Source of the DNA: a virus
Strand: one strand, 5' to 3'
IMG/VR virus record: IMGVR_UViG_3300009503_000018
Location: 1 to 64,000 of that record
Length of the DNA stretch: 64,000 nucleotides
The notes under the pieces were generated by a model, which saw nothing but the letters and a program-made list of their open reading frames with translations, had not been told where the DNA came from and ran no database searches. The position numbers and the translations under genes were made by a program. This document shows, piece by piece, positions 1 to 59,965 of this stretch; the stretch's first letter is position 1, and every line of letters starts with the position of its first letter.

Positions 1-135
1 AGGGCGAACGAAATCAACGACACCACTGACCTGGACAACCCCATCCACTCGGACCGGTTGCTCAGCAACACCACTGACCTGAACAACCCCATCTACCCGG
101 ACTGGTTGTTCAGCAACACCACTGACCTGAACGAC
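1..135. repeat. 48-bp tandem repeats encoding VVQVSGVAEQPVRVDG
   Basis: On the plus strand the unit reads roughly caccactgacctgaacaacc, and so on, about every 48 bases. At least two near-identical copies and one diverged copy are visible at the 3' visible end of the first gene. The array continues past the window edge, so copy number cannot be given. Confidence 0.8.
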
Positions 136-639
136 ATCAACAACATGTACATTTTGAATACCACTTTGCGTGACCGTGACCGAGGAGATCGAAACACTGG
201 TGTCAACTGCCAAACGTCGAACACCAGAAACCACAACCACACCAATTTTCTCACCTTCAGCGTCGACGAGGATAGACCGGCGGGCGACTGTTGGTTCTTC
301 TTCGAATTCGTAATCCTCTAAACGAAAATTCGGGATTAATTCATCTTTTGGAATAAAAGGTCGAAGTTGCTCATTGGCAAAAATAAAAGAACTACCGGCC
401 CCATAAGCAGAAATATCCAGGCGACTGTCTGGATTATTATCAATAGGTCCAACAAAAATGATGCCCGAGGCGATCCGTTTTATTGCTGCTTTAAGCGACG
501 GTAAAACAGATGATCCAATGACAACATTTTGACCAACCTTAAATAACCCAGGCTGAGCGATGCTGACTTGCCCATCAACAGTGCCGTTCGTAAGAAATGG
601 CTGAGGCGGAACGGCGGGGAGCTTGTGTTGAAAAGCCAT
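1..639 (-). CDS. Virion appendage-like protein with 16-residue tandem repeats (partial)
   Basis: The gene starts at the ATG at 639 behind an AAAGGTGTAACC ribosome-binding site that lies in the end of the upstream gene, and it runs off the left edge of the window. About 213 residues are visible. The N-terminal half (MAFQHKLPAVPPQPFLTNGT onward) is not recognised. The C-terminal part turns into valine-rich repeats with unit VVQVSGVAEQPVRVDG, seen two to three times before the edge and preceded by degenerate copies. Alternating V-x-V repeats of this kind are typical of beta-rich phage fibre, decoration or baseplate proteins. That family link is inference. Confidence 0.75.
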   Translation of the reverse strand, partial: MAFQHKLPAVPPQPFLTNGTVDGQVSIAQPGLFKVGQNVVIGSSVLPSLKAAIKRIASGIIFVGPIDNNPDSRLDISAYGAGSSFIFANEQLRPFIPKDELIPNFRLEDYEFEEEPTVARRSILVDAEGEKIGVVVVSGVRRLAVDTSVSISSVTVTQSGIQNVHVVDVVQVSGVAEQPVRVDGVVQVSGVAEQPVRVDGVVQVSGVVDFVRP

Positions 640-644
640 AATGG

Positions 645-1145
645 TTACACCTTTGGCAATTCACCATTAAGCAAAACAAGAGATTCACCGGTTAACTTAA
701 ACGACGCAATAAATGCTGATTCATGTTTTACTTCAATAACAAAATCTCCCGTCTCGGTATCTTCGAGAACATGAAACGAATACGAAGACATGTCTTCGGG
801 GGCGCGTGATTTATCAGCGAAACATGACGGACCAACAAACGTGCCTTTCGCATACAAACGTCCACGATTCGTCTCATATGGGGTTTCGACAAATTCTACA
901 TCGAAATCCGTATAACCCAAATCCGCAACATGTTCTTCAAATACAGAAAGAGCGGAATCAAGCCGTTTGTCTTGTCCTTGTCCGGATTCCGATTTAGAAA
1001 TAGATTCTAATTCCTCTGACGGAACGGACAATTCAATGGTTAAAAGTACTTCTTTTTTCGATAAAGCCGGACGCCTTATCGTTAAAAGTACTTCTTTTTT
1101 CGATAAAGCCGGACGCCTTATACTTTGATGCCGCGCCGTTTCCAT
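645..1145 (-). CDS. Unknown protein with duplicated LSKK tag at its N terminus
   Basis: This 166-residue protein overlaps the end of the upstream gene by 28 bases. Residues 9-36 are two exact copies of the 14-residue unit IRRPALSKKEVLLT. The rest is acidic, with a compact mixed region (SSYSFHVLEDTETGDFVIEV) that I do not recognise. The start at 1145 is the only ATG before the repeat, and no good ribosome-binding site was seen. The LSKK segment recurs in many other proteins of the operon, so this gene is part of that shared tag set. The function is unknown; its place beside portal and repeat genes suggests a virion or head-associated protein. Confidence 0.75.
   Translation of the reverse strand: METARHQSIRRPALSKKEVLLTIRRPALSKKEVLLTIELSVPSEELESISKSESGQGQDKRLDSALSVFEEHVADLGYTDFDVEFVETPYETNRGRLYAKGTFVGPSCFADKSRAPEDMSSYSFHVLEDTETGDFVIEVKHESAFIASFKLTGESLVLLNGELPKV
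1035..1121. repeat. 42-bp exact tandem duplication (LSKK tag)
   Basis: Two adjacent copies of a 42-base unit (beginning gttaaaagtacttctttttt on the plus strand) encode IRRPALSKKEVLLT twice. The copies are identical, which points to a recent duplication inside the gene. Confidence 0.9.
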
Positions 1146-1616: not shown

Positions 1617-4600
1617 CTATTTGCCCTCTACAAATATATGCGTGTTCGTGTCATCCGTAGACAAAATCGCACGAATATCACAAGCAATTTCTTCGGGAAT
1701 ATTCTGCAAATCAGCCGTTTTGCGCATTATATCCCGCACGACCGATGCGGGTTGAGACAAACCGCCCGCTGATCCAGGCGCACCAGCCCCTTGACCAACC
1801 TCTTCTCCTGGCGGTGTCTTGGGCGCCGGCTTGATCTCCCCAGGTCCCGGTCCTAGCCCTAATCCAAGGGGCAAACCTAACCCCCCACCACCAGGACCTT
1901 TTCCACCACCCAGGGATGACATTAACAATTGATTTTTTGCAATCGTCGCCGCATCTTGCCCTAACGTGGCCATTTCCGCGTCGTAATCCAAACCAGCGCC
2001 CTGGACCACACTCCGAGGCGAAATCCATCCTTTCTGCGCCAATTCAGACCAGAAACGGAGAATCGCTTCATCTTGCCGCACATCAAGGCGCTTTTCAAAT
2101 TGTAAATGCGGATACAACAAATGTTTACCTTTTTGCACACGGGATTTTGCCGTTGCTGCAACCTTCGACATCGCAATATACCGACGGCTTTTTGCCATAT
2201 TGACTTCTTCAATCAATGGCTGAATTTTCAGAAATTCATATGCTTGTTTTTCCGGATCTTGAATAGCACGAATTTCTCGCATGCGATCCTTGAGAAACAT
2301 CGTCTGCTTTTCCAACACAGGATCGCGAGAATCAGGCAGATCGGGTTCACTCTTTTTTGGCTTTCGGTAAAACCCGTTGAGTTCTGCCATGACCGCAAAG
2401 ACTTTTTTATAAATCCAATCCGATACAAACATTTCACGCAGCGTGCGATACCGCATCATCAATACTTGCAATCCAGCATTCGCGCTATTGTACGTGCCGA
2501 CGTTTTCGGCCAGGAAAGAATGCGTACCTTCTACCGTAATATCAATTACGGTTTCATTATTTTCTATTGGTTCAATTTTTTCTATAGGGAGATACACATA
2601 CTTTTCATCAACCCACGCCTGTTGACGAGAATGCGGAATAGGCCACTCAACACCCCATACCATTTTCGCCAAATCACGAGCAAATTTTCCATAAATATTA
2701 ATTTGATGCAAATCCTGCCGTTCATATCCGTCACGACGCACAACCCCTTTTTGGGTTGTGCGAGAACACGCGTATCCTAATTGCGCAAGCAAAAGCTCGA
2801 CTTGATAGGCGAGTTGTTCACTCGTCGTGCGATATCCAATATAGCGCTGTACCCATTTCTTATTCTTGTACGGCGTTTTTTCGAGTAACGACCCATCTCC
2901 ACGGAAAAGCCCTGTAATAAATTCTCTCTTATACTCTAATGGCCAATGCATGACCTCTTCTGATAATTGCTTGCGATGTGAGTATTGCCCGCCATGATAA
3001 CTAAATAAAAATCCTGAAGGGGCTCCGATGTAAACGCGCGTAACGTTCGGCTGATTTAGAGAATTACCAACAACTTTTGCCCCACTACATGCCAACCGTC
3101 TAGTAGCCGTCATACCAAGAGTTTCAGCCAAAGCGCACGCATCTTTTGCCCACGTGTCGTATTCAGCCGCACTAAAAGTTAGTTCACACCTTTTTCCCCC
3201 AATAATGCTACCTTCAGCCACATAATACCCGAGCAGGCGGGCAAATTCGATGGGTTGGCTTGGAGCAACTGCCTCGAACTCTCGTGGGACCATAAAGTAG
3301 TCACCAATGCGCAAATCTTTTGTCGGGAGTTTTTGATACGGCTCATAATTCGCTGGAAGTTTCTTCAACGATTGATGACGCCCAATGGTCCAGCGCGCAC
3401 CAGTATCCTTAAATGCGGGTTGTCTTTCCACTGTCACATGATGCTTAAGATGTTGGTACCAGGAGGTAAAAACACCCTGTATGGAACGTCCAGGGAAAAA
3501 CTCCTGGGCAAGTTGGTGCCGATTACGGCGTTCCAATAACCACGCGTCATGTAAAGATTTCGAACGAGGATGCCGACACATCAAACACTTTTTCGAAGCG
3601 TTGATCGTGTACGATGTAATACGAGATCTCACCTGTTTTCCACACGTTCGTGGCCATACCCATACTGGCCACCGATGTTTATCACTGGCGATAATGGTTT
3701 TATTCCCGGCCAAGCGAATTTTATACATTGGGTTGATAACCCCTTCATCCCACTTGTCCAAAACTTTCCTTGAATGACCGTCTTTGTCAATGATTTCGTC
3801 CCCAACTTTGATGTCACCCAACGGAACATAAGAACCATTTTTCTTCAGTATTTTCGCGGACTTACACAATGTGGCATACGTGGTTTCTCCGTGCAGGAAA
3901 GATTTATTAATTCCCAACGCAACCAATTTTGCCCGTTCAATCACATCCCATTCATTCGTGATTTTGAGCTGCTTACCTTCAATGCCATGATATTCTACTT
4001 GCAACCCATAATGATAGACAATCGCCGCCAATGGATCGACTTCAGATTCGGCCAAGACTTCAATAAATTCTTCCATGTTCTGCGGCGACGGAATCCATCC
4101 TTCTTTCGGATCGCCGAGCTTGAACACCCGCAGTGGCAACGCATGTCGTTGCGCCTGTTGAATCTGACCATTAAACACGGCGTCTTCATACATCAAAATG
4201 CGGAACAACCGTCCCATAATACTCGTTCCGCGAATATCGTATGGAAACGCCTTCCGTGCGATATGTGAAGCGTTAAGCGGGTCTAAGGGAATATTTTTTC
4301 CACCAGCAATGGACGCCAAAATATCCGAAGGGATCTTATTTCGAAGACGAACATATCGTGGATCTGTACTTTGCAAAATCCGCCGCAAATCTTGGGACGG
4401 ACGCAACGTCAAAATTGGATCGTCATCAATTAGCGGGGAATCAACAACTTCAACGTAATCAGGATTATGTAACGTAATATGCGTGAATATTCCTTCTTTA
4501 TCGTCCCAAAAACAAAAAGGAAAAATCTCCCCGATGATGAGATATTCACGTGTCATTTTGGGGAGCCAAGACAGGAGTTCTGTCTGATTCAGCATGTCTT

Positions 4601-5006
4601 CATAGGCATGCAAAATCGTCTGTGACTCATCACCAGGCTCATCCATAATGAGATATGCCCCAGACCACGGCATATCCCCATGCATGTCGATCGCTCCGCC
4701 GATAACCGGATCGACGTTGTAAAACAAACGCCAATATTGGTTGAGTTGAGCGAGTTGGACCGGAAGTTGTAACCGATCCGGAGAGGAGAATAACGGATGA
4801 TACGGACGCGCGGGTGCCCGTATCACCGAAGCACCGCCGGACCCAGCGAGTCCGGCGGTTGCCGTCCGACGAAAATTCGGGTGCGCTACACCCGTCCCTT
4901 GAACATCTGGTCCACCATAATGAAAAATGGATGGACCCGATCTATTAGCGCTCGCGGTTGCTGACGCGTTTTTCGAAGCAAACTTCTCTAAGTCTTCTCT
5001 CGCCAT
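1617..5006 (-). CDS. Portal protein interrupted by a LAGLIDADG intein
   Basis: The 1129-residue precursor would splice to about 667 residues. Portals form the dodecameric DNA-entry ring at the capsid vertex. The N-extein (1-378) has portal-like features: the segment RLFYNVDPVIGGAIDMHGDM near residue 93, a long alpha/beta wing region, and HGETTYA just before the insertion. The C-extein (from residue 841, SANAGLQVLMMRYRTLREMF) continues the helical crown and ends in a Gly/Pro-rich tail (roughly residues 1025-1085). The intein spans about 379-840 with an endonuclease domain (LLGYYVAEG, GLFRGDG). The start at 5006 (MAREDLEKFA) is the first ATG. The intein is a sister of the one in the terminase at 48.5-49.7 kb. 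The portal call rests on extein pattern and length and on the packaging-motor context. Confidence 0.85.
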   Translation of the reverse strand: MAREDLEKFASKNASATASANRSGPSIFHYGGPDVQGTGVAHPNFRRTATAGLAGSGGASVIRAPARPYHPLFSSPDRLQLPVQLAQLNQYWRLFYNVDPVIGGAIDMHGDMPWSGAYLIMDEPGDESQTILHAYEDMLNQTELLSWLPKMTREYLIIGEIFPFCFWDDKEGIFTHITLHNPDYVEVVDSPLIDDDPILTLRPSQDLRRILQSTDPRYVRLRNKIPSDILASIAGGKNIPLDPLNASHIARKAFPYDIRGTSIMGRLFRILMYEDAVFNGQIQQAQRHALPLRVFKLGDPKEGWIPSPQNMEEFIEVLAESEVDPLAAIVYHYGLQVEYHGIEGKQLKITNEWDVIERAKLVALGINKSFLHGETTYATLCKSAKILKKNGSYVPLGDIKVGDEIIDKDGHSRKVLDKWDEGVINPMYKIRLAGNKTIIASDKHRWPVWVWPRTCGKQVRSRITSYTINASKKCLMCRHPRSKSLHDAWLLERRNRHQLAQEFFPGRSIQGVFTSWYQHLKHHVTVERQPAFKDTGARWTIGRHQSLKKLPANYEPYQKLPTKDLRIGDYFMVPREFEAVAPSQPIEFARLLGYYVAEGSIIGGKRCELTFSAAEYDTWAKDACALAETLGMTATRRLACSGAKVVGNSLNQPNVTRVYIGAPSGFLFSYHGGQYSHRKQLSEEVMHWPLEYKREFITGLFRGDGSLLEKTPYKNKKWVQRYIGYRTTSEQLAYQVELLLAQLGYACSRTTQKGVVRRDGYERQDLHQINIYGKFARDLAKMVWGVEWPIPHSRQQAWVDEKYVYLPIEKIEPIENNETVIDITVEGTHSFLAENVGTYNSANAGLQVLMMRYRTLREMFVSDWIYKKVFAVMAELNGFYRKPKKSEPDLPDSRDPVLEKQTMFLKDRMREIRAIQDPEKQAYEFLKIQPLIEEVNMAKSRRYIAMSKVAATAKSRVQKGKHLLYPHLQFEKRLDVRQDEAILRFWSELAQKGWISPRSVVQGAGLDYDAEMATLGQDAATIAKNQLLMSSLGGGKGPGGGGLGLPLGLGLGPGPGEIKPAPKTPPGEEVGQGAGAPGSAGGLSQPASVVRDIMRKTADLQNIPEEIACDIRAILSTDDTNTHIFVEGK
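2487..3872 (-). mobile_element. Intein with DOD homing endonuclease in the portal gene
   Basis: The segment encodes about 462 residues. Block A is visible as SAKILKKNGSYVPLGDIKVG, and the splice end as ITVEGTHSFLAENVGTYN followed by Ser+1. The endonuclease blocks are EFARLLGYYVAEG (residues 587-599) and EFITGLFRGDG (695-705), with acidic catalytic residues present. Aligned to the terminase intein, the first residue would be Thr379, not Cys; a Cys lies two residues later at 381. The penultimate residue is Tyr, not the usual His. Boundaries at the N end are therefore uncertain by two residues. Confidence 0.85.
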
Positions 5007-9209: not shown

Positions 9210-10154
9210 CTATGTTCGATTTTTTCTTTTTGGCTTCATAGGAGGATATCCCTTTTTGCGAAAATCTTGAGCAAGCGTAATTGCGCTTCGCACAAGGGCT
9301 TTCGCTTTCTTGTGTACTTCGATATCTTCAGAGAGCCGCTGTTTATCATACGCATAATCTTCATTGGGAACCGCCGAAAATCCGACATAATACGGATCAG
9401 GATGAAACATCAAAAAGTCGTCATTGCCATCGTACAGTTGTTTTGCGACGAGTTCAATATAAGAAATATCCATGTTATGGATACCTTTTTCAGGATTTTC
9501 TTGGTCTTTGGACGTAATAAAATAGGCACAGACTTTTCCAAACAATCGGGGGTCGTAGTGGACTTCGTGTTCGGTGGAAAGGCGAATCATTTTTTGTCGC
9601 CACGCCTGATCTTTGAGGGCGAATTCTTCTGGAGCCACGTAATATCCACCATCGAGACTAATACAGCGATCCAGCAATGCCTTAAGCCGCGTAGACATAG
9701 AAGACTGATTCACCCCTGTAGAAATCAACAAGACATCGGCTCGCAAAATCAACGGATACAATTGCTGAGCGCCCTCGTGAGGATAAGGAAAGCAATTACA
9801 CGGAAATCCACATAAGGCAGAACAGGTCGCTAAACAATTATTGCATGGCTCAATCGTATATTCATTTAAATGCACACGTTCGATATGAATCGGCTCATCG
9901 GAAGAAATCTCTTCTAGCCCTTTTTCAAGGAGCATCGTCGAATTAGAAATTTCCCGTGAGCAATTATTCACGCCACGACCAGACCCAAAAAGCGCCAACA
10001 CTTCAAGAGGGCGGTCTTTCTTTTTCCAATATTCGACCGCTTCCTGACACCGCCGGACATTGGTTTCGTGTCCTTTTCGATATTCGGAAAAATCAACGTC
10101 AGGCGCGTTCGATCCATACCGAATTTCTTGCCACTGTGTAAATGTCAATGCCAT
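9210..10154 (-). CDS. Flavodoxin-fold NAD(P)H-dependent FMN reductase-like protein
   Basis: This 314-residue protein has the flavodoxin-like order. It shows strand-loop VLALFGSGRGVNNCSREISN (about residues 53-72) for phosphate binding of FMN, then the Cys cluster CNNCLATCSALCGFPC, then ADVLLISTGVNQSSMSTRLKALLDRC, which resembles the substrate/FMN loop of NADPH-dependent FMN reductases and iron-sulfur flavoproteins. The Cys cluster could ligate an Fe-S centre or zinc. The start ATG overlaps the stop of the upstream 1198-residue gene. Such redox enzymes are unusual in a virion operon. An alternative is a flavodoxin-fold domain reused as a structural scaffold. Confidence 0.75.
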   Translation of the reverse strand: MALTFTQWQEIRYGSNAPDVDFSEYRKGHETNVRRCQEAVEYWKKKDRPLEVLALFGSGRGVNNCSREISNSTMLLEKGLEEISSDEPIHIERVHLNEYTIEPCNNCLATCSALCGFPCNCFPYPHEGAQQLYPLILRADVLLISTGVNQSSMSTRLKALLDRCISLDGGYYVAPEEFALKDQAWRQKMIRLSTEHEVHYDPRLFGKVCAYFITSKDQENPEKGIHNMDISYIELVAKQLYDGNDDFLMFHPDPYYVGFSAVPNEDYAYDKQRLSEDIEVHKKAKALVRSAITLAQDFRKKGYPPMKPKRKNRT

Positions 10155-13100
10155 TATTTCTTTTTTCGCAGACGGATGTAGATATCCTCCGACCCATCTT
10201 TTGTTTTTTCGACAACGTCTGGTCGAAGCGGCAGGGTTTCCCCTTGTAATATGGGAGTTCCGGGTTCAAACTCTTCCTGTGTATTCAATTTCCATTTGCG
10301 AAAAAATTCAATTGGTGGTTCTTTTTCTTGATGCTTTGCTGCGGCCCGTTCAGATTCTTCCGGCGCGCCCGGAACGCCCGGCTCAGGAAGGAAATTTTCC
10401 CCTTCTAACATGCGGACTAATAAATCGAATAATTCTTTTGATGCACGCTTCCGTCGCATAAAAACAACATCCGGTTTTCCAAATTGGCTCACATCCCACT
10501 CCTTTGGTGCCATTTCTTCGCTAAACGGCACTCGCTTATATTCTACAAATCCTTTCGACGTATACAAATTCGTAAGGAATCCTTCAAATGCGTCTAATGT
10601 CTCAGCCCCTTGTGAAAGGGCATGCTCGACGGCAGCGGCACCGGCACCACGAATCGGGCTCGCATTGAATACCGAAACAAGATCATTTTCCGGCGTAATC
10701 GCGTACCCAGTCTGTTCATCGGTAGACAAATATGTTCGCATTTTTCGATAATCATCCAGGCTATATCCGCTGAGAAATCCTAAATATCTTTGCACTTTTG
10801 GCGAAGTTTTTGCTCGTTCAATTGCCGCATAAAATTGCTCGGCCGGGACTTGACGAAACACAACCTGCGCCGTTTTTATCTGTACACGAGAGTTTTGCTT
10901 TTGTAAAGATGGTGTACCGGGCGTATGATCAGGATCGTACCCAGGAGGTTCGTCGCCTTTCCCAAATCCACGACTTGGGGCATTCAAGAATAGATGCGTC
11001 AACAAACAGCCTCCAAAGCCATAGCCGTATTCCCCCCATCCCGCCTGCGTCGGATTTACATCCGCACCCCCGGCATTATCGGCAGATTGTTCATGAATAT
11101 TCGAATCAATCGAATCCCCAAACCCACTCCCAGACGGACCACCAGAATCCGCAGACTTTACCAATGGAGGAACATAAAATGTACACCCACGACACGCCTC
11201 GTGTGTTTGACCTGCCCAAAATGTCGAACAGTCTCCGCCGCTATCATCGGATTCTCCGTCAGCCGATTTTTTCGACAATGACTGAACATAAAAATAATCC
11301 GATACTGCCTTCCGCAGTCCTGGACCAAAGACCCTTCCGTATTTAAGAAATACGGCTTCTTTGTCTTCGCCATTTTGGATATCGTAAATGGCATTCGCCA
11401 GCGCTTTTGATTTTTTCGTAAACTCGTCAATACTCGCAATATAGCGCTTTTGAATAGAAGATCCGGGTACGATTCGTGTAACATCGGCCCAAACATACGA
11501 ACCAGCGATTTTATCCGCGTCGGTATCATGGACCAGGTAATACATGCTCCCATATTGATACAGAGGAACGGGAATAGATGCGGATGATGCACGAATCATT
11601 GGCTTGACTGGTACTCCAAGCACGCGCGATGTCGGAACCCATCGAAATCCTTCGTGGATTAAATCACCGTATAACCGATCCTCACGACTAATCGGGGCGT
11701 GCGCCAAATCCAATGCCGACATTCCCTCGTGAATTAACGAATCAAATTCTGATTTGTAACGATCCACATCGGCGCGGTATTCGTCTGTAAACGGCAACGC
11801 ATAAAGGGCATCAACCAAATCTCCGACCGGAACCGGTTCTCCACGCACGACTTTCGCGAGTGTCTCTAATGCCGATTTATATTCCTCTTTCGCAAATTCC
11901 GTTCCAGAATTCGCTATATACTCTTTCCACTTGTCTTTTGCCCGATGATATGCTTGACTATACAACTTTCCCAGATACCGTTTTCTCCACCAATCGTTGT
12001 ATCCTTGGACCAATGGGTGATCGCGGCGAGACTTGGCTTTGTCGCGCAAAAACACGACTAAGGAATCGTCCAGGTTTGGTTTGGTTTTCGTAAACCAATG
12101 TCCGAAATCGTGATTCCCGGCACTCACGACCCATTGCGTATACAGCGTTGGAGAAATCGTTGATGGATCAGCCGTTGAAAAGTCACCTAAATCAGCGAGG
12201 TCGATATGCGAACACCGCCCCAAATATTTTTTCCACGCTTGAATATCATCCAAATCAGCAAAGACATGAGGAAGTTCTTTTTCGACCCATTCTCTTGGCG
12301 GACTCAAATGATACTGATACGCGTCGAGAGAACCCACGTATTCACCAATAGATTTCGCATAATCAACAACACGCCGAGCGAAATCCGCAAACCGCTCACG
12401 CAGATCACGAGGCATTTCTAAGAGCAACGGCTGATGCTTTTCTTCTTCTCCCTTGTCTTTTTTGTCTTTTGGTATTGGAGAAACATCGACAGCAACTTTA
12501 CCCGACAATTGGCGTTGAGGTCCCGGCATCTGCACATCAAACGACACCGGTTCATGTGTGTCAAATACACCACTTTGTTCTGCGCTTTGCTTTCTTCGAC
12601 CAATCTCATACCATGCCCACGGATCAACTTGAAGCATACGCGAGACCATAGAATGCGTCGAATTTAAAATTCCATCAATGTATACAAGAGGAGAAGACCG
12701 ACCTTCGACGACATCTTTCCGCAAGAGCAACTCGTCAAGGCTTTGCAATTTCTGGGTAAGAAATTCGACTTGAGCCGGAGCAAGATATTTTTTGGCTTTC
12801 CCCGCAAATATCGCGACGGCTTGCGCAGCTTGTTCATAAGCTTGCAATGAAGATTTTCTCTCGGCATCTTGTATCGCGTCATGCGCCCGCCGCCATGCCG
12901 ACCACAAATCTGGTGGGACACGTTCTTGTTCCCATTCTTCCGTTTGCGGCGCAAGAAAAAATAATGGGTCATCGTCTTCTGCGGTTTTTGTGAAAACGGC
13001 ATAGGCTGTTGCGAGTGGACCCCGTTCGGGACGATAGATCGGCGGGACCCGTTTGCGGCGCCTCGTGTCATCGTCATTGACCGTTGGGCTAATAGGCTGG

Positions 13101-13750
13101 AGCGGAATCCCAATGCTATCGGATGGTCGAAATTCCAATTCTCCTCGTTGCATCGGCGCGGCATGGAGCCCAGATTCAGCACCAAATGGTTCCCCAGAAG
13201 CCAATGACCCCGAACCGCCACCCCATTCGTTTTTGATCGTGTCTCCAGGAAATTTATCTTTTGGGGGGTTCCTTTTAAACGGAGGAACAGCGGCCAATCG
13301 GTACAGTAAATCCCGGAGACGAGAAGCCAGTTTTCCTTGTGTCGGTTCCGCCATATCAGCAAATTCTCGCACCGTCATTGTTTGGAATTTTTTAATTATC
13401 TCTTCCACATCTTGCCAAGCCCGTTCTTTCCCTTTCCATGCCCGCTCTCGATGATAAAGCAGTGTTCCAACTTGTTCTATCCAACGCTCTTTTCCTGTTT
13501 GCAAAAATATTTCCACATCGGTTGCCCAATACTCGCCTCGCAGAGGATAAATAAAAATCCGGATACGTAATAATACGTACCACGGTTTTCCGTCAACGAT
13601 AATCGGAATGTCCCGGTCTTCCCAAAACATATCACCGCTATGACCACCGCTATGATATGGCTCTTGGGTAAGACTCGTGATTAACGGTGTTCCGCTTTCA
13701 GGACTATTTCTCAAGTATTCATATAGGGTTTGTGTAGTAAACTCGGGCAT
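10154..13750 (-). CDS. Giant mosaic virion-associated protein with C-terminal GNAT-like domain
   Basis: This is a 1198-residue protein with no single family. Residues 1-150 look like a folded alpha/beta domain. About 150-330 are Pro/Gly-rich linkers. The middle (330-790) is long and helical. Around residue 825 comes LSKKSADGE, followed by a Cys cluster (CSTFWAGQTHEACRGCTFY). Residues about 985-1100 form a GNAT-like domain (VQRYLGFLSGYSLDDYRKM ... VFNASPIRGAGAAAVEHAL ... FGKPDVVFMRRKRA), a pattern seen in acetyltransferase-like domains of large phage polyvalent proteins. The gene lies 2 bases from its upstream neighbour. Large multidomain proteins in this position are often internal head or ejected proteins; that is inference. 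Confidence 0.75.
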   Translation of the reverse strand: MPEFTTQTLYEYLRNSPESGTPLITSLTQEPYHSGGHSGDMFWEDRDIPIIVDGKPWYVLLRIRIFIYPLRGEYWATDVEIFLQTGKERWIEQVGTLLYHRERAWKGKERAWQDVEEIIKKFQTMTVREFADMAEPTQGKLASRLRDLLYRLAAVPPFKRNPPKDKFPGDTIKNEWGGGSGSLASGEPFGAESGLHAAPMQRGELEFRPSDSIGIPLQPISPTVNDDDTRRRKRVPPIYRPERGPLATAYAVFTKTAEDDDPLFFLAPQTEEWEQERVPPDLWSAWRRAHDAIQDAERKSSLQAYEQAAQAVAIFAGKAKKYLAPAQVEFLTQKLQSLDELLLRKDVVEGRSSPLVYIDGILNSTHSMVSRMLQVDPWAWYEIGRRKQSAEQSGVFDTHEPVSFDVQMPGPQRQLSGKVAVDVSPIPKDKKDKGEEEKHQPLLLEMPRDLRERFADFARRVVDYAKSIGEYVGSLDAYQYHLSPPREWVEKELPHVFADLDDIQAWKKYLGRCSHIDLADLGDFSTADPSTISPTLYTQWVVSAGNHDFGHWFTKTKPNLDDSLVVFLRDKAKSRRDHPLVQGYNDWWRKRYLGKLYSQAYHRAKDKWKEYIANSGTEFAKEEYKSALETLAKVVRGEPVPVGDLVDALYALPFTDEYRADVDRYKSEFDSLIHEGMSALDLAHAPISREDRLYGDLIHEGFRWVPTSRVLGVPVKPMIRASSASIPVPLYQYGSMYYLVHDTDADKIAGSYVWADVTRIVPGSSIQKRYIASIDEFTKKSKALANAIYDIQNGEDKEAVFLKYGRVFGPGLRKAVSDYFYVQSLSKKSADGESDDSGGDCSTFWAGQTHEACRGCTFYVPPLVKSADSGGPSGSGFGDSIDSNIHEQSADNAGGADVNPTQAGWGEYGYGFGGCLLTHLFLNAPSRGFGKGDEPPGYDPDHTPGTPSLQKQNSRVQIKTAQVVFRQVPAEQFYAAIERAKTSPKVQRYLGFLSGYSLDDYRKMRTYLSTDEQTGYAITPENDLVSVFNASPIRGAGAAAVEHALSQGAETLDAFEGFLTNLYTSKGFVEYKRVPFSEEMAPKEWDVSQFGKPDVVFMRRKRASKELFDLLVRMLEGENFLPEPGVPGAPEESERAAAKHQEKEPPIEFFRKWKLNTQEEFEPGTPILQGETLPLRPDVVEKTKDGSEDIYIRLRKKK

Positions 13751-16625: not shown

Positions 16626-17849
16626 TTACTCTACTTTTACTTGGCGTGGTCCTGAATTTGGTCGTTTCGCAATATCTGCTAACGACACAGGAGCTTCTGG
16701 AGCTTCAGTCCCTGGAGGTTTTGGCTGTTTAGGTCCAGGGCCCATCGCCCGTTCAAATGCTGCTTGCTCCTCCCACTGCACTTTTTCCCATGCTTTGGTT
16801 GCCCCTTCATATAACTCTTCAGGTGGATTACTGTAATTTTGTCGCATGTATTGGACCAAATCCCACACCCCAATGCGAATTCCTTTATATAACGCATTAC
16901 GAATCAACATCTCTGCTTCCGTAATAATTTCATGTCGTGATAATGGGCGACCAGGTCCACCGACCTGCGGTTGGGGTCGATCTCCTGCGGGGGCTTGGAT
17001 TGGTCCTGTTGGTGTCGAAGACGAGGGAACCGGTTGTGCGATTTTCCTTTGGGCTTGATGATAAGGTCCAAGAATATAATCGTGCGGCACAGCAAGAAGT
17101 TCATCCCCATGACGGATAATGTATTGATAGCCATCATCGCGCACGATCTTTCCCGGCACAACCCCGAGCGTTGGATGAGAAAACTTCACTAAATCACCGA
17201 CTTCCCAATGATATCCACTATTCTTGAGTAGCGCGTTTTTACTCAATGGAGTTCGAACCGCTTCATAGACCATGCCACACTGTGGACACGATTTTTCTGG
17301 ATCTTGTGGATCTTTTCTCTGCAAATACGCCCCATCATGTTGACAATGCTGCGGACGACGATGTGGAAACGCTGCTTTTTTGGACAATCGAGACAACCGA
17401 CGAGCATACGTCGTCCCTGTCCCCGGTTCGATCCGTTGTGCTTCCCCTGGAGCGGGAGTAGGGCCCCCCTCTTCCCCTGACTGCGCTGGTGTAGTCGGCG
17501 TGCTTTTTGGATAGACGCGCGGAGCCGATCCGGGCTGCATATGGGGGATGTTGTATTGCTGTCCCGATTCGTCAACAACAACAACCTGTTGTGACGTATT
17601 TGTCAAAATGCGCATCTTCTTCGGTGTACCATCCGCCATCGTCAATTCGACTTCTTGACCTGGAGCTAAATTGCGCAAGTCTTGAGCCGTTTTTATTCGC
17701 GCTTTTGCGATATAGGTGTATGCTGCCGTGCGATTTGCAAATTCCCACGCCAAATCATGCCCCCATATTGCAGTGATAGGGGATTCAGTATCAGCAATAA
17801 CCCGATACTCATGACCAGACAACAATACACAATCAGCGAGATATTTCAT
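16626..17849 (-). CDS. Mosaic protein with zinc ribbon, barrel modules and two LSKK/LSKN tags
   Basis: In this 407-residue protein the N-terminal 50 residues are a small domain (MKYLADCVLLSGHEYRVIAD). Residues about 58-108 form a barrel-like unit (PGQEVELTMADGTPKKMRIL). A Pro-rich linker follows, then RLSKKAAFPHRRPQHCQHDG with a CPQCG ribbon, then TPLSKNALLKNSGYHWEVGD leading into a second barrel (about 213-255). The C terminus is helical and Pro-rich. The two tag copies sit exactly at domain borders. The function is unknown; membership in the tag-bearing virion set is clear. Confidence 0.75.
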   Translation of the reverse strand: MKYLADCVLLSGHEYRVIADTESPITAIWGHDLAWEFANRTAAYTYIAKARIKTAQDLRNLAPGQEVELTMADGTPKKMRILTNTSQQVVVVDESGQQYNIPHMQPGSAPRVYPKSTPTTPAQSGEEGGPTPAPGEAQRIEPGTGTTYARRLSRLSKKAAFPHRRPQHCQHDGAYLQRKDPQDPEKSCPQCGMVYEAVRTPLSKNALLKNSGYHWEVGDLVKFSHPTLGVVPGKIVRDDGYQYIIRHGDELLAVPHDYILGPYHQAQRKIAQPVPSSSTPTGPIQAPAGDRPQPQVGGPGRPLSRHEIITEAEMLIRNALYKGIRIGVWDLVQYMRQNYSNPPEELYEGATKAWEKVQWEEQAAFERAMGPGPKQPKPPGTEAPEAPVSLADIAKRPNSGPRQVKVE

Positions 17850-18778: not shown

Positions 18779-21700
18779 CTATCGTGGTCTATGCGTGTAT
18801 GGTCCGGTCGATGTCGGCGTCAGATCAGCAACATCGACTTGGAACTGCCGACGCTGACTGTCTTCGACCGTTGCGCGATTTCCAGTATTGTCAATGGCAA
18901 TAACCAAAACTTCCCGTCCACGATACATTGCGGGTTGGAAAATGCCCATCCCCTTGTCAAGAAGGGCTTTCTTTGACAAGGCGACACTTGCCGTGCTCTT
19001 CTTCTGATGACTAAAGTAATGAACTTGCTTTAGTCTCTTTTTGGCCTGTTCTCGCGTCTTATACGGACCACCGAGATTTTTGCCCTCCTCCGATTTTACA
19101 TAATATGCTCCCGGTCGTCCAACAATCTTCCCCACCAAAAGGCGCGCGGATAAGAGTCTCGTAGTCCCAATAAACCATCGTGCTAACTCGTCTGCCTCAT
19201 GAGAAGCCAATTTTCCAGATGCTTTGTAAAAGCGCAAAATCTCTCGAATATCCGCAATGGACAATGCATGACGATATTCAGTAATTGCTTGCTTCAAATC
19301 GCCGGAACGGCGAAATGCCGCGTGTACTTTTTGCTGCACGGCACGATTTGCTTGTCTCTTTGCCTCATAATCTTCTAGATCCCCTCCATACAGATACTCC
19401 CCGCATTGTGAACAATATTGTGGGGAGTCGCTTTCACCGAAAAAGATCGGTTGTGGAGTGATATCCGAATCATACATATCCGCGTCAGGAATAACATTCG
19501 GACCTTGAGCGATAATTTCCGAACCACAATCAGGGCAGTAAATCTCTCCTTGATAGACATACCCATCAAGACCCGGACCACCGAGAAGCAGCTCGGATTT
19601 TGTCACAGCCGTCTTCCTTCGGGCTTCATGACTCCCTAAATTTCCCCCATACAGATACGCCCCGCATTGTGAACAATGCTGTGGGAGTTCATGTTCACCG
19701 AAAAAGATCGGTTGTGGAGTGACATCTGAGTCGTATGCATCTTCATCAGGGACGACATCCGGACCTTGAGCGATAATTTCCGAACCACACGGAATACAAT
19801 AGAGTTCCCCGCGATAAACATACCCATCAAGACCCGGACCACCACGAAGCAATTCAGACTTTGTTGCCGCTTCTTTTGTCGTTGACTTCCATGACGGATA
19901 TTCATCACTCTCTCGGGGATACAACGCGCTTTGATCAGCACGTGGAGTCTCTCGTGGAGCTTGGCTCACCTGATCCGGCCGTTCCATATATTCAGTCTCC
20001 CACGGCGCTTTATACCACCACGCGGTCTTGCGTACTGCTTGTCGCCGCTTGAGCAAATTCCACTGGCGCTGTGCCTCTTCTCGTGTCTCGGGATCTGTTT
20101 CTGGATCATTGATAATATTAAACAACGCCCGAAGCTTTTCTTGAATGTCAGACGATTCTTGAGCAATGAGTTGTCTTCGCGATAATGCTCGTGCGTTCGC
20201 ATGATGCGGATATCGCGTCCATGTCGCACGACACGTTGGACACCAATACTTGTCCTCGGTTTTCTTAATCGTTAATTCTCGACAATTTGGACACGTCCCA
20301 GATTCTAACAACATATGACGGAATCTCTTTTCTAGGTACGCAGCATCCAACTGTCTACGAGCTTCCTGCCGTTTTTCGGGATCCGCACTGGGATCAGCGA
20401 CAATATCAGACAATCGGCGAATTTTTTCGACAAGATCCCGATTCTCGGACTTATCAGACGATTCTTGAGCAATGAGTTGTCTTCGTGCCATTTTGTTTCC
20501 TTCGAGAGTCCACGTGGAATGACAACGCGGACATCGGTATCCGGTCTCGGTCTTATGAACCCGAGATTTTCCACACTCCGGGCAAAATCCAGCGTGTAAC
20601 ATATGGATAGGTTTTGGTGATGTTTTACGGATCAATTCTTGTGCAACTTCTGATACATCGCGCTGTGAATACCGATGCCGACGATATTCTTTTGGCAAAT
20701 CGTACAATTTCTTTTCACAGCGTGTGCATTCTGGCGGATAATCCTCAAGCTCCCCGAGAAAAATTGGCTGAGGGACGATATTCTCGTCATACCCCTCATC
20801 TTCGCTATACACCTCTGGACCTTTTTCGATAATTTTCCGCCCACACTCAATACAATAGGGCTCGCCTTTATAGACGTATGCTTCCAGTGCGGGTCCTTGA
20901 TAAGCCGTTAACAGGTCTTCTTTTGTCCACTGGCTTTGGCGGCGGAAAGACTGTTTTTTTGATTCCTCCGGCGCGTCGGCTTCTTCTTTTTCTTCCGTGA
21001 CAAAATCCTGTAATTGTTCTGTAGCATGTTCAAGATGTTCGACCGTTTTCTCTAGTATTCGAACTTCCTCCGGCTCGACCCCTTCCGCTTTTTCATGTTC
21101 AAGGACATCCTTGACATGTTCGGTTACATGTTCGACATCGGACTTTAGCGTTTCGACAATTTCCTCTTCTAGTAGCTCTTCCGGATCACCAACGAAATCA
21201 AATCCCAATTCTTTTGGCGTCCCAGTATCGACAACTTCTAATTCAATGACTGGAACTTCCGTATCTCCAATTCCTGGAAATGCGACAACGGCAAAATTAT
21301 CGTTTGCATACCGCAAAAAGAGCGCTTCTTTCCCGTTGACACGCACCACATCACCTCGGGCAAATCTCTTTTCGGCTGTTCCGACGACCTGCCGTTCGGC
21401 GAGAGCAGAACTAATTTTCGTTAACTGCCGAAGATATATCTTCACACCGCCGTGCGACTGAAGTCCCGCAGAAATCAAAATCGCATTCGCCTGCTCCCAC
21501 GACATTCCAAATTCATAAATAAGAGCCTGCTCCACGCTATCGCGGGAGAGGTATTCACGCGGTTGTCCTTTTCCAGTATACAGGGTATAGACAAATGAAG
21601 CGCCAGACGTTGCACTCCGTCGGCACGTGATATACGCAGTCGGTGGGATCCGCTTCCACACCTCTCGCTCTTTCTTGAGTTTTTCATTATGCTGATCAAA

Positions 21701-21892
21701 CCATGCGTCTGCGATCTTCACTTGATGACTTGAAAACCGACCACATTTTACGCAATGGTAGTCCACCGTCCCTTGAACATGTTGTGGACCAACCGTGATC
21801 GACGCAGTCCGTTCGCACCAAGGACAAACCACATCAACTGATCGCGAGGATGTGAGTGCCTGTGCAACATCGAGCCCTGATAATTTCGTCAT
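18779..21892 (-). CDS. Zinc-ribbon repeat protein (at least eight ribbons) with LSKK and RRQLIAQESSD tags
   Basis: The protein has 1037 residues. The N terminus has a ribbon (VCPWCERTASI...CVKCG). A barrel-like unit lies near 170-225 and a long acidic coiled coil near 230-310. Module Z (a two-part ribbon, [GA]YVYxGExYC..CG..II...GP then TPQPIFFGE...CSQCG.YLYGG) occurs three times (about residues 330-400, 680-750 and 765-835). A second ribbon unit of about 115 residues ending in RRQLIAQESSD occurs twice (about 435-570). The C terminus has VALSKKALLDKG followed by a barrel (QPAMYRGREVLVIAIDN). The whole reads as a string of duplicated zinc modules. It is likely a large virion-associated or nucleic-acid-contacting protein, by inference only. 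Confidence 0.75.
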   Translation of the reverse strand: MTKLSGLDVAQALTSSRSVDVVCPWCERTASITVGPQHVQGTVDYHCVKCGRFSSHQVKIADAWFDQHNEKLKKEREVWKRIPPTAYITCRRSATSGASFVYTLYTGKGQPREYLSRDSVEQALIYEFGMSWEQANAILISAGLQSHGGVKIYLRQLTKISSALAERQVVGTAEKRFARGDVVRVNGKEALFLRYANDNFAVVAFPGIGDTEVPVIELEVVDTGTPKELGFDFVGDPEELLEEEIVETLKSDVEHVTEHVKDVLEHEKAEGVEPEEVRILEKTVEHLEHATEQLQDFVTEEKEEADAPEESKKQSFRRQSQWTKEDLLTAYQGPALEAYVYKGEPYCIECGRKIIEKGPEVYSEDEGYDENIVPQPIFLGELEDYPPECTRCEKKLYDLPKEYRRHRYSQRDVSEVAQELIRKTSPKPIHMLHAGFCPECGKSRVHKTETGYRCPRCHSTWTLEGNKMARRQLIAQESSDKSENRDLVEKIRRLSDIVADPSADPEKRQEARRQLDAAYLEKRFRHMLLESGTCPNCRELTIKKTEDKYWCPTCRATWTRYPHHANARALSRRQLIAQESSDIQEKLRALFNIINDPETDPETREEAQRQWNLLKRRQAVRKTAWWYKAPWETEYMERPDQVSQAPRETPRADQSALYPRESDEYPSWKSTTKEAATKSELLRGGPGLDGYVYRGELYCIPCGSEIIAQGPDVVPDEDAYDSDVTPQPIFFGEHELPQHCSQCGAYLYGGNLGSHEARRKTAVTKSELLLGGPGLDGYVYQGEIYCPDCGSEIIAQGPNVIPDADMYDSDITPQPIFFGESDSPQYCSQCGEYLYGGDLEDYEAKRQANRAVQQKVHAAFRRSGDLKQAITEYRHALSIADIREILRFYKASGKLASHEADELARWFIGTTRLLSARLLVGKIVGRPGAYYVKSEEGKNLGGPYKTREQAKKRLKQVHYFSHQKKSTASVALSKKALLDKGMGIFQPAMYRGREVLVIAIDNTGNRATVEDSQRRQFQVDVADLTPTSTGPYTHRPR
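19375..20905. repeat. Duplicated zinc-ribbon modules inside the 1037-residue gene
   Basis: Two close copies of module Z lie at about 19380-19595 and 19634-19855 on the plus strand (they share accgaaaaagatcggttgtg and acccatcaagacccggacca). A third, diverged copy lies at about 20695-20905. A different ribbon unit is doubled at about 20040-20310 and 20315-20600, each copy containing gattcttgagcaatgagttg. The near-identity of the closest pair suggests recent duplication or gene conversion. Confidence 0.85.
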
Positions 21893-21955
21893 AATTCCCT
21901 CTTCATTACATATAACGCTTTTTTTGTCAGACCTTCGAGTTTCTTCCTTTTATCC

Positions 21956-22393
21956 CTATAAAGTTTCACCGGTAAGGGCATAATACGCCTTTTGAACACG
22001 ATCTGCTAAATCCAATTCCCCCATATAAACTGCATTATTGTACAATATTCGAAGTTCGTAGGCCGTCATGTCATATGCATAAAACAGAGCGTCACGCTCT
22101 TCTTGCATCTCGTCAGAAAGTTCCGGCTCTTCTGGAGTCGGCAAAGAAGGAGAAGGCTTCCGGGGTTTTCCTGGGGACTTGAGTCTCCGTTTACTCGGGT
22201 CAAACTGCAAAATTTCGGCGGCAGTAATTTTTAACCCCGATTTTGGCAATTCTGTCCATGTATAAGGAATCTCCCGAGGAGTCGGACCTAAAACTTTCTG
22301 TCGGTCACGACCAACGGGTTTTTGTTCTACGCGATACATGTCCCGACTTTTTTCCAGCCAAGCCGCTTTTTTTGATAATGGTATTTTTTTCAT
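21956..22393 (-). CDS. Tag-bearing protein (LSKKAA plus KITAAE), unknown
   Basis: This 145-residue protein starts MKKIPLSKKAAWLEKS and carries LKITAAEILQFDPSKRRL at about residues 54-71. Both segments are shared with the 30-residue gene just upstream. The rest is Pro-rich (KPRKPSPSLPTPEEPEL) followed by a helical C terminus (MQEERDALFYAYDMTAYELR...ADRVQKAYYALTGETL). The helical end could be a small independent domain. No family is recognised. Confidence 0.7.
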   Translation of the reverse strand: MKKIPLSKKAAWLEKSRDMYRVEQKPVGRDRQKVLGPTPREIPYTWTELPKSGLKITAAEILQFDPSKRRLKSPGKPRKPSPSLPTPEEPELSDEMQEERDALFYAYDMTAYELRILYNNAVYMGELDLADRVQKAYYALTGETL

Positions 22394-22396
22394 GAT

Positions 22397-22489
22397 TTAA
22401 ACACGCCTTTTTATCATATTTACAACTTCAGCCGCCGTAATTTTCAATCTTTTTTCAAGCAAAGCCGCTTTTTTTGATAATATTTTCAT
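22397..22489 (-). CDS. 30-residue peptide made only of two shared tags
   Basis: This short gene encodes 30 residues: MKILSKKAALLEKR followed by LKITAAEVVNMIKRRV. The ATG overlaps the stop of the 858-residue gene by one base (TAATG), the same coupling used at 18185. It ends four bases before the next gene. Its whole length is the LSKKAA..LEK tag plus the KITAAE tag, with no domain attached. Either it is an expressed minimal tag or the remnant of a larger gene; the intact overlap and frame favour expression. Confidence 0.6.
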   Translation of the reverse strand: MKILSKKAALLEKRLKITAAEVVNMIKRRV

Positions 22490-25065
22490 TATTGCATCAC
22501 TTCAGTCAATGTATCAGCAAGCTGACGCGCAATTCCCCGCCCGCGCCAATGCAGTGGAATTTCCACAACCCGCAATTTCAGTGGATTACATTCTACGCTC
22601 AATCGGGCCCGAGCAATCATATGAAATGCAGTCACGATATTCCCTGTTTTTATCATCACAACAGGACTCCAACACGCCTTGAGTTTACTCTCGATGTGTT
22701 TTCTTCTCCACCGAACAGATTCCATTTCTTTTCTTCGTAATTCTTTTCTTTGTTCTGGTGTCAAATGAGAAATATCCGTTCCATACAAGCTCGGATAGCC
22801 AGTCCGGCGAGACCACATCCGATAATCACGCAGCATTTGCTTGGTCTCATCGGTGAACGCGGGTTCCATCCAATACATCGCATGTTCGCTTCCCTTCGTA
22901 TCCAAAGCATCATCAATCCATCTTGAGGGATCTCCGGGCCAACTTTTCCCGCTAAAAATATTCCCGGTATTGTGTTGCAACGTATTGATTTGATCTATCA
23001 GGATCCCCAAATACCGCCACGGCATGTTTCGACGCAACGCTTCTTGAAGTTGCAACGCGCGAATAGCAGCCAAAGCCCATCGCGGACCTCCCCAATTCGA
23101 AGCCGACAAATCGGTATTAAACGCCCGAGCCAAATCAGCTAAGTCCGCGCTTTGTAAGTCATCTATATCATCTCGATATACTTTTTTATTCAAAATTTTT
23201 TCCATTTCTAGGATATTCGAAAATTCTTCGTTCCATTGTTCTTGCAATATTCCTTCTTCATCTTCTTCTTTTTCTTCTCGTTCGACTGTCTCTTCTGTTG
23301 GTCCTGTTGCGGCGAGGATTTCACCGGTTGTTCCGTTAATCATAATCAAGGTTCCGACATCGAGAGTCTTCCCATCTGGAAACTTAACTTGATTATCGTC
23401 TATGGTAAATCCGGCCCCTGTCACACACGGTTTTCCCATTTGCCGGGCCACGATCGCGGCATGCGCTGTAGGACCTCCATGCGCCGTCAGAAATCCCACA
23501 GCCGCATTCATCGCAGAAATATCTTCTGGCGTTGTCTCGGGCCGTACCAAAATTACTGGCCCTTCTTGTGCCATTTGAACCGCCATTTCGGCAGTTGTCG
23601 CAATACGCCCGGTCGCTGTCCCTGGAGAAGTCCCAATCCCTTTTGCAATTACTGCGCGATCAGCAAATTCTTTCACCCAATCTGGTGGAACGATGTTGGG
23701 GTATTTTTCAAAAAACTGTTCCAAATCGGGGTCAGTTTGCGTTTGCAACAAGACATTCTTATATCGTTTCCATGCCGCCGTGAGATCTGGTTGGATTTCT
23801 TTCCAAATCAACGCATCATATTCATCGGGGTTTTTCGTATTGTACAGTGGTTTCACACCAACGATTGTCAAAAATACATCATCAGCATCTGTACTTAAAA
23901 TATCCTCATAGCCTTTTAGGCGCTCAACCGCTTGAGCAATTTCCTGTTCATCTAATGCATTTATCAATCGCTTGAGTTGCACCAAATATTTGAATTTCTT
24001 AAGCTTCTCTTCGTCGAGTTGTTCGCGTAGGGTTTCACCAACTGGCGCCACCGTTGTAAGCACGGACTCAGGATGCGCAATCAATGCGCGTTCAAAAAGA
24101 CGCCAGGAAGACGGCTTATATGTGGAGCGAATCGTAGACCACGGCACCCATTGATTACGCTCGGGGTCGAACAAAGAAAAATCAAACCATTTTGAAGTAT
24201 CAATAGTAATAGGAGGCGGTTCCGACCGCGCTGGGAAAAGTCGCTGTCGTGGCTGTGCAATAATACGCCAACCAGATTTTGTGACTTCTGGCTGTTCTTG
24301 CTGTTCTTGCTGTTCTTGTCTTGGCGTAATGTGTGGTAATATTAATTGGACTTGACCTGTCGTATCGAGAAATGCTCGTCCACATAACGGGCACCGATAC
24401 GGTTCTCCAGGCAATTCTACAGGAGTAATACTCTCATAATCCACTTCAACTTCATCTGGCTGCGGATAAGGTTGGAATTGGTGTTGATGATGTTCTTCCC
24501 AAAAATCCCCAGCGTAAGGCGCCTCTTCGTCGTCCGGTAACATATCCGTTTCAGCGGAGCACCCCAAATATGTTACCCCTGTCTTATCAGTAAAATTCAC
24601 GCATTTGTATGTTTGGTCCCCTACGAGAGCCCACATGTGCGGTTTTTTGTCTCCACACTCCACACAACGGTGTCTTAACGATGTGTCCTCATACTCATGC
24701 AAATATTTGTCTCCGCAGGAATCACAAGTGTGGTATAACGTGCCTTCGGCAGTAAAGTCATGTTCGTCTGTTTCGCCGCAAACCTCACAGGAATGATAAC
24801 CTTTATTATCCGTCGACCATTCATGCACGTGTTCTTCTTCTTCTTCTTCATTCTTTATAGCTGTAAGAGTGTGGTCAGCTTCTGTGCGGACGAAGTCTTC
24901 AAGCTGGGAAGCATATTCTCGTGCGAGGGGGAGCACAATTTCTTCCGCATATCTATCCCATTTAGGAAATGCTCGATAAAATGCGGGCGGAAGTTGCATG
25001 ACCGCATAAAAATTGTACAGTTCGTCTATAGCGACAGCGCGACGAATGAATCGGGGTCGTGTCAT
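22489..25065 (-). CDS. Chimera: zinc ribbons, PPDK-type phosphohistidine domain and GNAT-like C terminus
   Basis: This is an 858-residue protein. Residues about 80-185 hold a string of Cys/His pairs (CEVCGETDEHDF, CDSCGDKYLHEY, CVECGDKK), and a ribbon near 224-229 has CPLCG. Residues about 475-587 match the swivelling phosphohistidine domain of pyruvate phosphate dikinase/PEP synthase (GIGTSPGTATGRI, VILVRPETTPEDISAMNAA, and GGPTAHAAIVARQMGKPCV with His535 as the expected phospho-acceptor). The C terminus (about 795-855) resembles a GNAT core (LRVVEIPLHWRGRGIARQLA). No ATP-grasp or TIM-barrel partner domain of PPDK is present. How the histidine would be phosphorylated is unknown. The start at 25065 lies 3 bases from the phosphatase gene. 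Confidence 0.8.
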   Translation of the reverse strand: MTRPRFIRRAVAIDELYNFYAVMQLPPAFYRAFPKWDRYAEEIVLPLAREYASQLEDFVRTEADHTLTAIKNEEEEEEHVHEWSTDNKGYHSCEVCGETDEHDFTAEGTLYHTCDSCGDKYLHEYEDTSLRHRCVECGDKKPHMWALVGDQTYKCVNFTDKTGVTYLGCSAETDMLPDDEEAPYAGDFWEEHHQHQFQPYPQPDEVEVDYESITPVELPGEPYRCPLCGRAFLDTTGQVQLILPHITPRQEQQEQQEQPEVTKSGWRIIAQPRQRLFPARSEPPPITIDTSKWFDFSLFDPERNQWVPWSTIRSTYKPSSWRLFERALIAHPESVLTTVAPVGETLREQLDEEKLKKFKYLVQLKRLINALDEQEIAQAVERLKGYEDILSTDADDVFLTIVGVKPLYNTKNPDEYDALIWKEIQPDLTAAWKRYKNVLLQTQTDPDLEQFFEKYPNIVPPDWVKEFADRAVIAKGIGTSPGTATGRIATTAEMAVQMAQEGPVILVRPETTPEDISAMNAAVGFLTAHGGPTAHAAIVARQMGKPCVTGAGFTIDDNQVKFPDGKTLDVGTLIMINGTTGEILAATGPTEETVEREEKEEDEEGILQEQWNEEFSNILEMEKILNKKVYRDDIDDLQSADLADLARAFNTDLSASNWGGPRWALAAIRALQLQEALRRNMPWRYLGILIDQINTLQHNTGNIFSGKSWPGDPSRWIDDALDTKGSEHAMYWMEPAFTDETKQMLRDYRMWSRRTGYPSLYGTDISHLTPEQRKELRRKEMESVRWRRKHIESKLKACWSPVVMIKTGNIVTAFHMIARARLSVECNPLKLRVVEIPLHWRGRGIARQLADTLTEVMQ

Positions 25066-25068
25066 AAC

Positions 25069-26250
25069 TTAGAAGAACTTGTGGAATTCCTTTTTACTCA
25101 AAATCCGCTTGGGTTTTCTACGGAACAAACTCGGAAAAGGAAAATGCCATTTCGGTAGCCGCTCCATCGTAGTACGGGGTTCAACTTTTGGCAATCCGAC
25201 ATATTCTCGAATCGCTTCCTCCATCACTCCTTCCGGCATAGCAACAGGTCTCTTTTCATTAATCTCGTTGATGATTTGGCTGTAAACTTTTTCTTTTTTT
25301 CTTTTTGTTAAATTCAAATCACGAAGTTGGTTCTGTAACAAATACGCTGCGATTACAGAAGGCGAACGGTTCATTCCCTCTCGACAGTGAACATAAATAT
25401 TCTTGCCTTCGCTCGTCCAACGTTCGAGGGTTTCCACCGCACGGCGAATATCCTGGAGACGACGAGCATTTCCTTCGGGCGATTCATCGAATTCATCGAT
25501 TGGGATATGTACATATTCTACATCTGGAGGTGGTGAATACGTATTTTGACTCACATTCAAAATGGCATCAAACGGTTTCCCCGTCTGACGATCACGCATT
25601 AACCACGCATTGATAATATCTCCAAGCCAGATATTTGGCGTAATTTGATCGGCTTTAATATCCTTTCTGTCCATATATTTTGTCAATAAAAATTGGACTA
25701 TACGGGACATATGAGGGCCGTGCTGCACTTTTGGCGGTGCGGAGAACCCTTGCGGTACAGAAAACAGTTCCGGTTGTGATGGCCGGGACAAATCACGTTC
25801 AACATATCCGCATGTGTTACAAAAATAATAAGGCTCTTTACCAATTTCGACCATCCCTATACCCGAACCACAATGTGGACATTTCCCAAAACTAATATCC
25901 TTTGAAGGATCAGGATCTTGATATTCGGGAAATTCTTCAAATTCAAAATCTTGATATTCTTCGGGGATTTCTTCGTGATATTGTTTCCAATGCTCCGATT
26001 GGTACAATTGTTCATTGGGGCTCAAAAGAACCGTTTGTCCACATTCTGGACACTGGATATTCCATGCTGAATATTTAACAATACTCTTTTTCGATAATGC
26101 TGTGGATTTACGATGTTTTTTCCAATGTTCCGATTGGCGAAGATTCTCGTGCGCCTGGAGAACGACCATCTGCCCGCACTCAGGGCATTGAACGATATCC
26201 CAACCCCATGCTGAAAATTTAACAATACTCTTTTTCGATAAAATACGCAT
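25069..26250 (-). CDS. Dual-specificity phosphatase with N-terminal zinc ribbons and LSKK tags at both ends
   Basis: This is a 393-residue protein. The N terminus is a duplicated unit, LSKKSIVK[FY]SAW plus a CPECG ribbon ending EHWK (residues 4-43 and 52-89), then a third ribbon (CPHCG...CNTCG, 124-148). Residues about 205-350 form a DSP/PTP catalytic domain with VHCREGMNRS (Cys289, Arg295) and candidate acid Asp252 or Asp255 in PIDEFDESP. DSPs remove phosphate from Tyr/Ser/Thr or from nucleotides and RNA 5' ends. The C terminus is RILSKKEFHKFF, another tag. It directly precedes the phosphohistidine-domain gene, so a joint phosphate chemistry is possible. Confidence 0.85.
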   Translation of the reverse strand: MRILSKKSIVKFSAWGWDIVQCPECGQMVVLQAHENLRQSEHWKKHRKSTALSKKSIVKYSAWNIQCPECGQTVLLSPNEQLYQSEHWKQYHEEIPEEYQDFEFEEFPEYQDPDPSKDISFGKCPHCGSGIGMVEIGKEPYYFCNTCGYVERDLSRPSQPELFSVPQGFSAPPKVQHGPHMSRIVQFLLTKYMDRKDIKADQITPNIWLGDIINAWLMRDRQTGKPFDAILNVSQNTYSPPPDVEYVHIPIDEFDESPEGNARRLQDIRRAVETLERWTSEGKNIYVHCREGMNRSPSVIAAYLLQNQLRDLNLTKRKKEKVYSQIINEINEKRPVAMPEGVMEEAIREYVGLPKVEPRTTMERLPKWHFPFPSLFRRKPKRILSKKEFHKFF

Positions 26251-59961: not shown

Positions 59962-59965
59962 GTCA

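Follow-up and report, generated by a model that had tools for sequence, protein, structure and literature searches.

A 30-residue frame built largely from two recurring protein motifs in the late module of an uncultivated phage, and its probable origin from a neighbouring leader

Why should a phage carry a frame of 30 codons, most of which spell two short motifs that recur on larger proteins around it? The question was raised by positions 22397-22489 of IMG/VR record IMGVR_UViG_3300009503_000018, a record of 139,527 bases from an uncultivated phage of about 140 kb. Positions 1-64,000 of the record were analysed and are called the window below. The frame and its neighbours are listed here.

22489-22397, minus strand: 30-residue frame (MKILSKKAALLEKRLKITAAEVVNMIKRRV), with tag A (LSKKAALLEK) at residues 4-13, a 2-residue gap, and tag B (KITAAEVV) at residues 16-23
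21956-22393, minus strand: 145-residue protein, with tags at residues 6-15 and 55-62
22489-25065, minus strand: 858-residue multidomain protein with a PEP-utilizer mobile domain and an N-terminal RFIRRAVA, without an LSKK tag
25069-26250, minus strand: 393-residue zinc-ribbon and dual-specificity phosphatase protein, with an LSKK tag at residue 4, another at 52 and a C-terminal one at 384

The frame was confirmed on the minus strand, as was its coupling by TAATG, in which its ATG overlaps the stop of the upstream 858-residue gene; 3 nt separate its own stop from the ATG of the 145-residue gene. A sequence-only reading had described the frame as nothing but two tags. Both segments are present, but they make up 18 of the 30 residues, the rest being MKI, RL and NMIKRRV. 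The 145-residue protein, for which no Pfam family was found, carries both segments, as had been described (LSKKAAWLEK and KITAAEIL); they stand in the same order, with a gap of 39 residues and not 35. The proposed position between two tagged genes was not borne out: the upstream 858-residue protein has neither an LSKK nor a KITA tag, and the nearest tagged gene on that side is the one beyond it (393 residues). The ribosome-binding site 5' of the frame is weak, and AAAAAGGCG lies close to the frame's end, ahead of the 145-residue gene. AlphaFold2, run on the single sequence, gave one confident helix at residues 6-29, which is weak evidence for so short a peptide.

Related motifs were found on the following window proteins.

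645-1145, minus strand: 166-residue protein in which the RRPALSKKEVLL tag stands twice in tandem, near the N-terminus
1617-5006, minus strand: portal protein (phrog_16240), with FRRTA at residues 45-49, RKTA near the C-terminus and an intein-like insertion
10154-13750, minus strand: 1198-residue protein, with IKTAQ just ahead of a phrog_2563 domain (residues 970-1101)
16626-17849, minus strand: 407-residue protein with the motifs IKTAQ, RLSKKAA, PLSKNALL and RKIAQ
18779-21892, minus strand: 1037-residue multi-zinc-ribbon protein with repeated tags between its domains (RKTA, KTAVTKSELL, ALSKKALL, ALSRRQLIAQ)
57982-58545, minus strand: 187-residue methyltransferase-like protein with a C-terminal tag A (GILSKTALL)
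58542-59282, minus strand: 246-residue protein that carries tag B close to its N-terminus (MKVTAAEVANEKG)

The tags are real, recurring protein-level motifs. Counts were made over the late module, on the minus strand at about 0.6-27 kb, with the 30-residue frame left out. The pattern L[ST][KR][KNTR] occurred 14 times in eight proteins (2.0 expected) and [KR][KRTSIV][TSI]A 16 times (5.0 expected); neither count was reached in 300 shuffles, in a test that counts internal duplications more than once and with patterns picked after the sequence had been viewed. Neither pattern was in excess over shuffled proteins in the other window genes outside the late module. First-order Markov simulations gave on average 0.07 frames with both patterns; the window has two, the 30-residue frame and the 145-residue gene. 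Copies of LSKK differ in their serine codon (TCA, TCG, TCC, AGT and AGC), so the motif is conserved as protein and not as DNA. Tags are N-terminal in the 30-, 145-, 166- and 393-residue proteins and mid-protein or C-terminal in the others. The same short motif is carried by several otherwise unrelated proteins, which are putative cargo. Some tagged proteins are encoded at a distance from the head genes (58-59 kb of the window and L002:12972-13229), and tail genes show little enrichment.

All 1,836 short frames of the whole record were scored against the 30-residue frame. The next best scored 36 (the frame against itself, 136), and no second short tag-only frame with both motifs was found among them. 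An overlapping 36-residue frame at window positions 21889-21999, which ends in LTKKALYVMKREL and is ATGA-coupled to the 1037-residue gene, was considered as a second tag-like frame and rejected, its likeness to the 30-residue frame being no better than chance (shuffle P 0.10). L002:12972-13229 encodes an 85-residue protein with an N-terminal MFLSKRAFLKKA followed by a C2H2 zinc finger, a further tagged candidate. The genes at 58542-59282 and 59710-59988 adjoin and have GFKPLKFEGT near the start in common; one is led by MKVTAAEVANEK.

Other classes of element were also set aside. A DNA-level repeat was rejected on the differing codons of the tag copies, and a structured RNA element on the lack of any Rfam match over 16-28 kb. 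An ssrA-type degradation tag was rejected since the tags are genome-encoded and mostly N-terminal or internal, and no tmRNA was found in the window. Amphipathic-helix targeting was dropped because the LSKKAA tags have no elevated helical hydrophobic moment. Scans for promoters and terminators turned up nothing specific.

The origin of the frame was examined at the codon level, in a comparison of copying and constraint that concerns one pair of short sequences. Between the frame and the 145-residue gene, tag A uses the same codon at eight of nine comparable positions (3.5 expected, P ~0.001), which points to copying of that gene's leader. Tag B does so at three of six (2.5 expected). Over LKITAAE[VI], 5 of 24 nt differ with one conservative residue change (P 0.025 for random placement). 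Shared tag A codons, together with tag B residues kept despite codon change, suggest a shortened duplicate whose second half has been held as protein. The frame is thus probably a reduced, still peptide-coding copy of the 145-residue gene's leader, and its tag B is apparently under some protein-level constraint. The suggestion of the sequence-only reading that the frame is the eroded end of a gene comes close to this result, in that it is a reduced copy of the neighbour's leader, but the coding of tag B was apparently kept.

The same data bear on a reading in which translation of the frame, if any, has no effect and the frame is a decaying duplicate, now a spacer or leader that holds the ribosome-binding site of the 145-residue gene. 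The weak start context and the position of AAAAAGGCG fit it, as do gaps of 88-123 nt between other genes of the late module. The frame is nevertheless intact and overlaps the upstream stop, and its tag B residues were kept while the codons changed. We regard this reading as unlikely.

What the tags might do was approached through the genes around them. The late module runs across the record end into head genes (portal, protease and capsid), two of which are given here.

L005:11680-13857: head maturation protease fused to a scaffold-like part (phrog_18299, E 2.8e-33)
L005:9657-10820: capsid protein, a head gene of the module

The record ends appear to join at the gene of a repeat protein (window 1-639), which makes a circular or circularly permuted genome probable. 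This protein has many VSGVAEQPVRVD-type repeats (window 1-639 and L010:3-2885) and is found in two adjacent genes of the near-identical relative L010. The protease gave a tblastn match to the annotated prohead protease of Rhodococcus phage E3. A search with the capsid protein yielded 23 records of relatives. In most of them, basic-x-A sites are kept in the otherwise variable N-terminal ends of head proteins. The portal has RRTA or KKTA (FRRTA here), the protease PFYKTA or PFFKTA, the scaffold a basic stretch that closes with KxAQ (including KKAQ), and the capsid protein KxSA-like sites. Lying in removable ends of the portal, scaffold and capsid proteins, such sites could be cut sites of the head protease. 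Tag B (KITA, KVTA) and the interdomain motifs IKTAQ, RKTA and RRKTA fit this pattern, and tag A (LSKKA) is similar to the basic stretch at the scaffold ends. Scored with a matrix made from the relatives' scaffold ends only, LSKKAALLEKRLK of the 30-residue frame (tag A) came 26th among 40,535 positions of the genome's proteins, a match that reflects the lysine pattern alone, with the A-Q cut position out of register. The candidate capsid site is not strictly conserved (VTAE here, VTAS in an 84% relative), and the protease of the 84% relative begins with MFVKLG, without KTA. The intein-like insertion of the portal spans residues ~382-840 and includes a part resembling an endonuclease, with a phrog_4645 match at 681-780; the sequence of the 84% relative, L008, is uninterrupted there.

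The nearest named virus by capsid protein is Rctr197k (44%). It encodes a 2175-residue multi-domain protein between terminase and portal (L037:16139-22663), with seven [KR]TA sites where 1.6 are expected (P 0.0015). One of them lies shortly before a GNAT domain, and another ahead of VAVDLDGTI, which by eye looks like the start of a HAD phosphatase. With KTA sites near its domain edges, the protein resembles a polyprotein of head-carried proteins. It is like the tagged proteins here, as read from motifs and position, in being multi-domain, in lying in the head module and in having K/R-T-A near domain edges; it differs in having no clear LSKK excess (2 vs 0.4 expected, P 0.05).

Short head signals shared by unrelated proteins are known from other phages. 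In T4, about ten N-terminal residues suffice for head entry and are then cut off by gp21, and capsid-targeting sequences are common to unrelated cargo (PMC9026906). In SPN3US, gp53 and gp54 have 15 identical N-terminal residues with cut motifs, in proteins that are 34% identical (PMC5694885). The tags resemble the T4 capsid targeting sequences (IPI-III, Alt) with gp21 in being short putative signals, N-terminal in several cases, on unrelated proteins in the presence of a head protease (PMC9026906, PMC5694885). They resemble the propeptides of SPN3US and phiKZ, which have a gp245-type protease, in that identical short N-termini stand on diverged head proteins and one propeptide holds several candidate cut sites (PMC5694885). 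Glutamate, not alanine, is the last residue of the cut sites in T4, phiKZ and SPN3US (PMC9026906, PMC5694885). T4 signals end in an acidic cut site and SPN3US and phiKZ cut at AxE or SxE, whereas the motifs here are basic, end in alanine and present putative sites of the pattern K/R-x-A. Unlike the T4 signals, they also stand mid-protein and at C-termini, and once as a free 30-residue frame. A strict T4-type targeting sequence (L/I-x-E cut) was therefore rejected, since T4-type proteases cut after E and the KTA, RRTA and KxAQ sites end in A. A first idea, a T4-like cut after the E of KITAAE, was rejected because the similar capsid position is E here and S in the 84% relative.

The likeliest reading is that the tags work like T4-type head signals. 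They were read as head signals because they are enriched in a module that reaches the head genes, because a head protease is present and because basic-x-A sites recur in the relatives. The variable capsid site, the protease of the 84% relative without KTA, and the mid-protein and C-terminal tags argue against this. The explanation that we favour, tentatively and with somewhat less than even confidence, is that the tags are signals for head targeting and maturation cleavage and that the 30-residue frame is an orphan signal copied from its neighbour, likelier a tolerated remnant than essential. Short basic motifs would direct proteins of this phage lineage to the head as it forms. The head maturation protease would cut at tag B and the KTA/RRTA motifs, and tag A (LSKKxxLL) would be the targeting part or a variant site. 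The frame would be a signal with no cargo, copied from the 145-residue gene's leader minus linker and body and translated by coupling to the upstream 858-residue gene; its peptide would enter the prohead and be broken down as other propeptides are. We infer cleavage, head targeting and translation, as well as the lack of an essential role for the frame.

The tags could instead be docking motifs for another partner (a regulator of the phage, a chaperone or protease of the host, or a membrane) on early-acting proteins that are encoded beside head genes by chance. Their placement is independent of position, C-termini included, and the tagged proteins at 58-59 kb and L002:12972-13229 are far from head genes, as would be expected. 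This reading sits badly with the enrichment in a module that runs into the portal, protease and capsid genes while tail genes show little, and with the similar basic-x-A sites in the relatives' head proteins; it is considered rather improbable.

Conservation of the locus would bear on whether the frame is a working gene. The 145-, 393-, 858- and 1198-residue proteins and a zinc-ribbon alignment were searched against viral contigs with no relative found, and the 407-, 858-, 1037- and 1198-residue proteins gave no match in up to 14 of the 23 capsid-found records. A degenerate DNA pattern for the tag hit no other viral contig, tblastn of the 30-residue sequence gave no match in named phages, and the phosphatase protein gave a single 24-residue partial match in genome contigs. 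A mini-gene, whose free signal peptide binds scaffold or protease (for example, helping the core assemble) or acts as a decoy that tunes loading through competition with tagged cargo, would account for the tight coupling on both sides and for the apparent keeping of tag B as protein. It would also agree with the predicted helix at residues 6-29, and in T4, too, small core proteins are processed to fragments (PMC5694885). The record holds no second tag-only frame, however, the viral contig searches gave no relative that would show conservation, and a helix prediction for 30 residues says little. A regulatory role, or the decoy that the sequence-only reading had proposed, is possible, but nothing observed here speaks for either. 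A functional minimal tag peptide, another of its suggestions, is conceivable, and the mini-gene as a whole is judged quite unlikely. A bolder scheme, in which modular short signals load and cut arrays of effector domains in the head and the bare signal is also made as a 30-residue peptide that regulates loading or head assembly, was thought very unlikely.

If the tags are loading and cut signals, as in the favoured reading, they would provide a simple sequence rule that predicts head-carried, host-entering proteins of a large uncultivated phage group. Such a rule, if true, would cover the zinc-ribbon, phosphatase and PEP-utilizer domain proteins, and the 30-residue frame would be a natural minimal signal.
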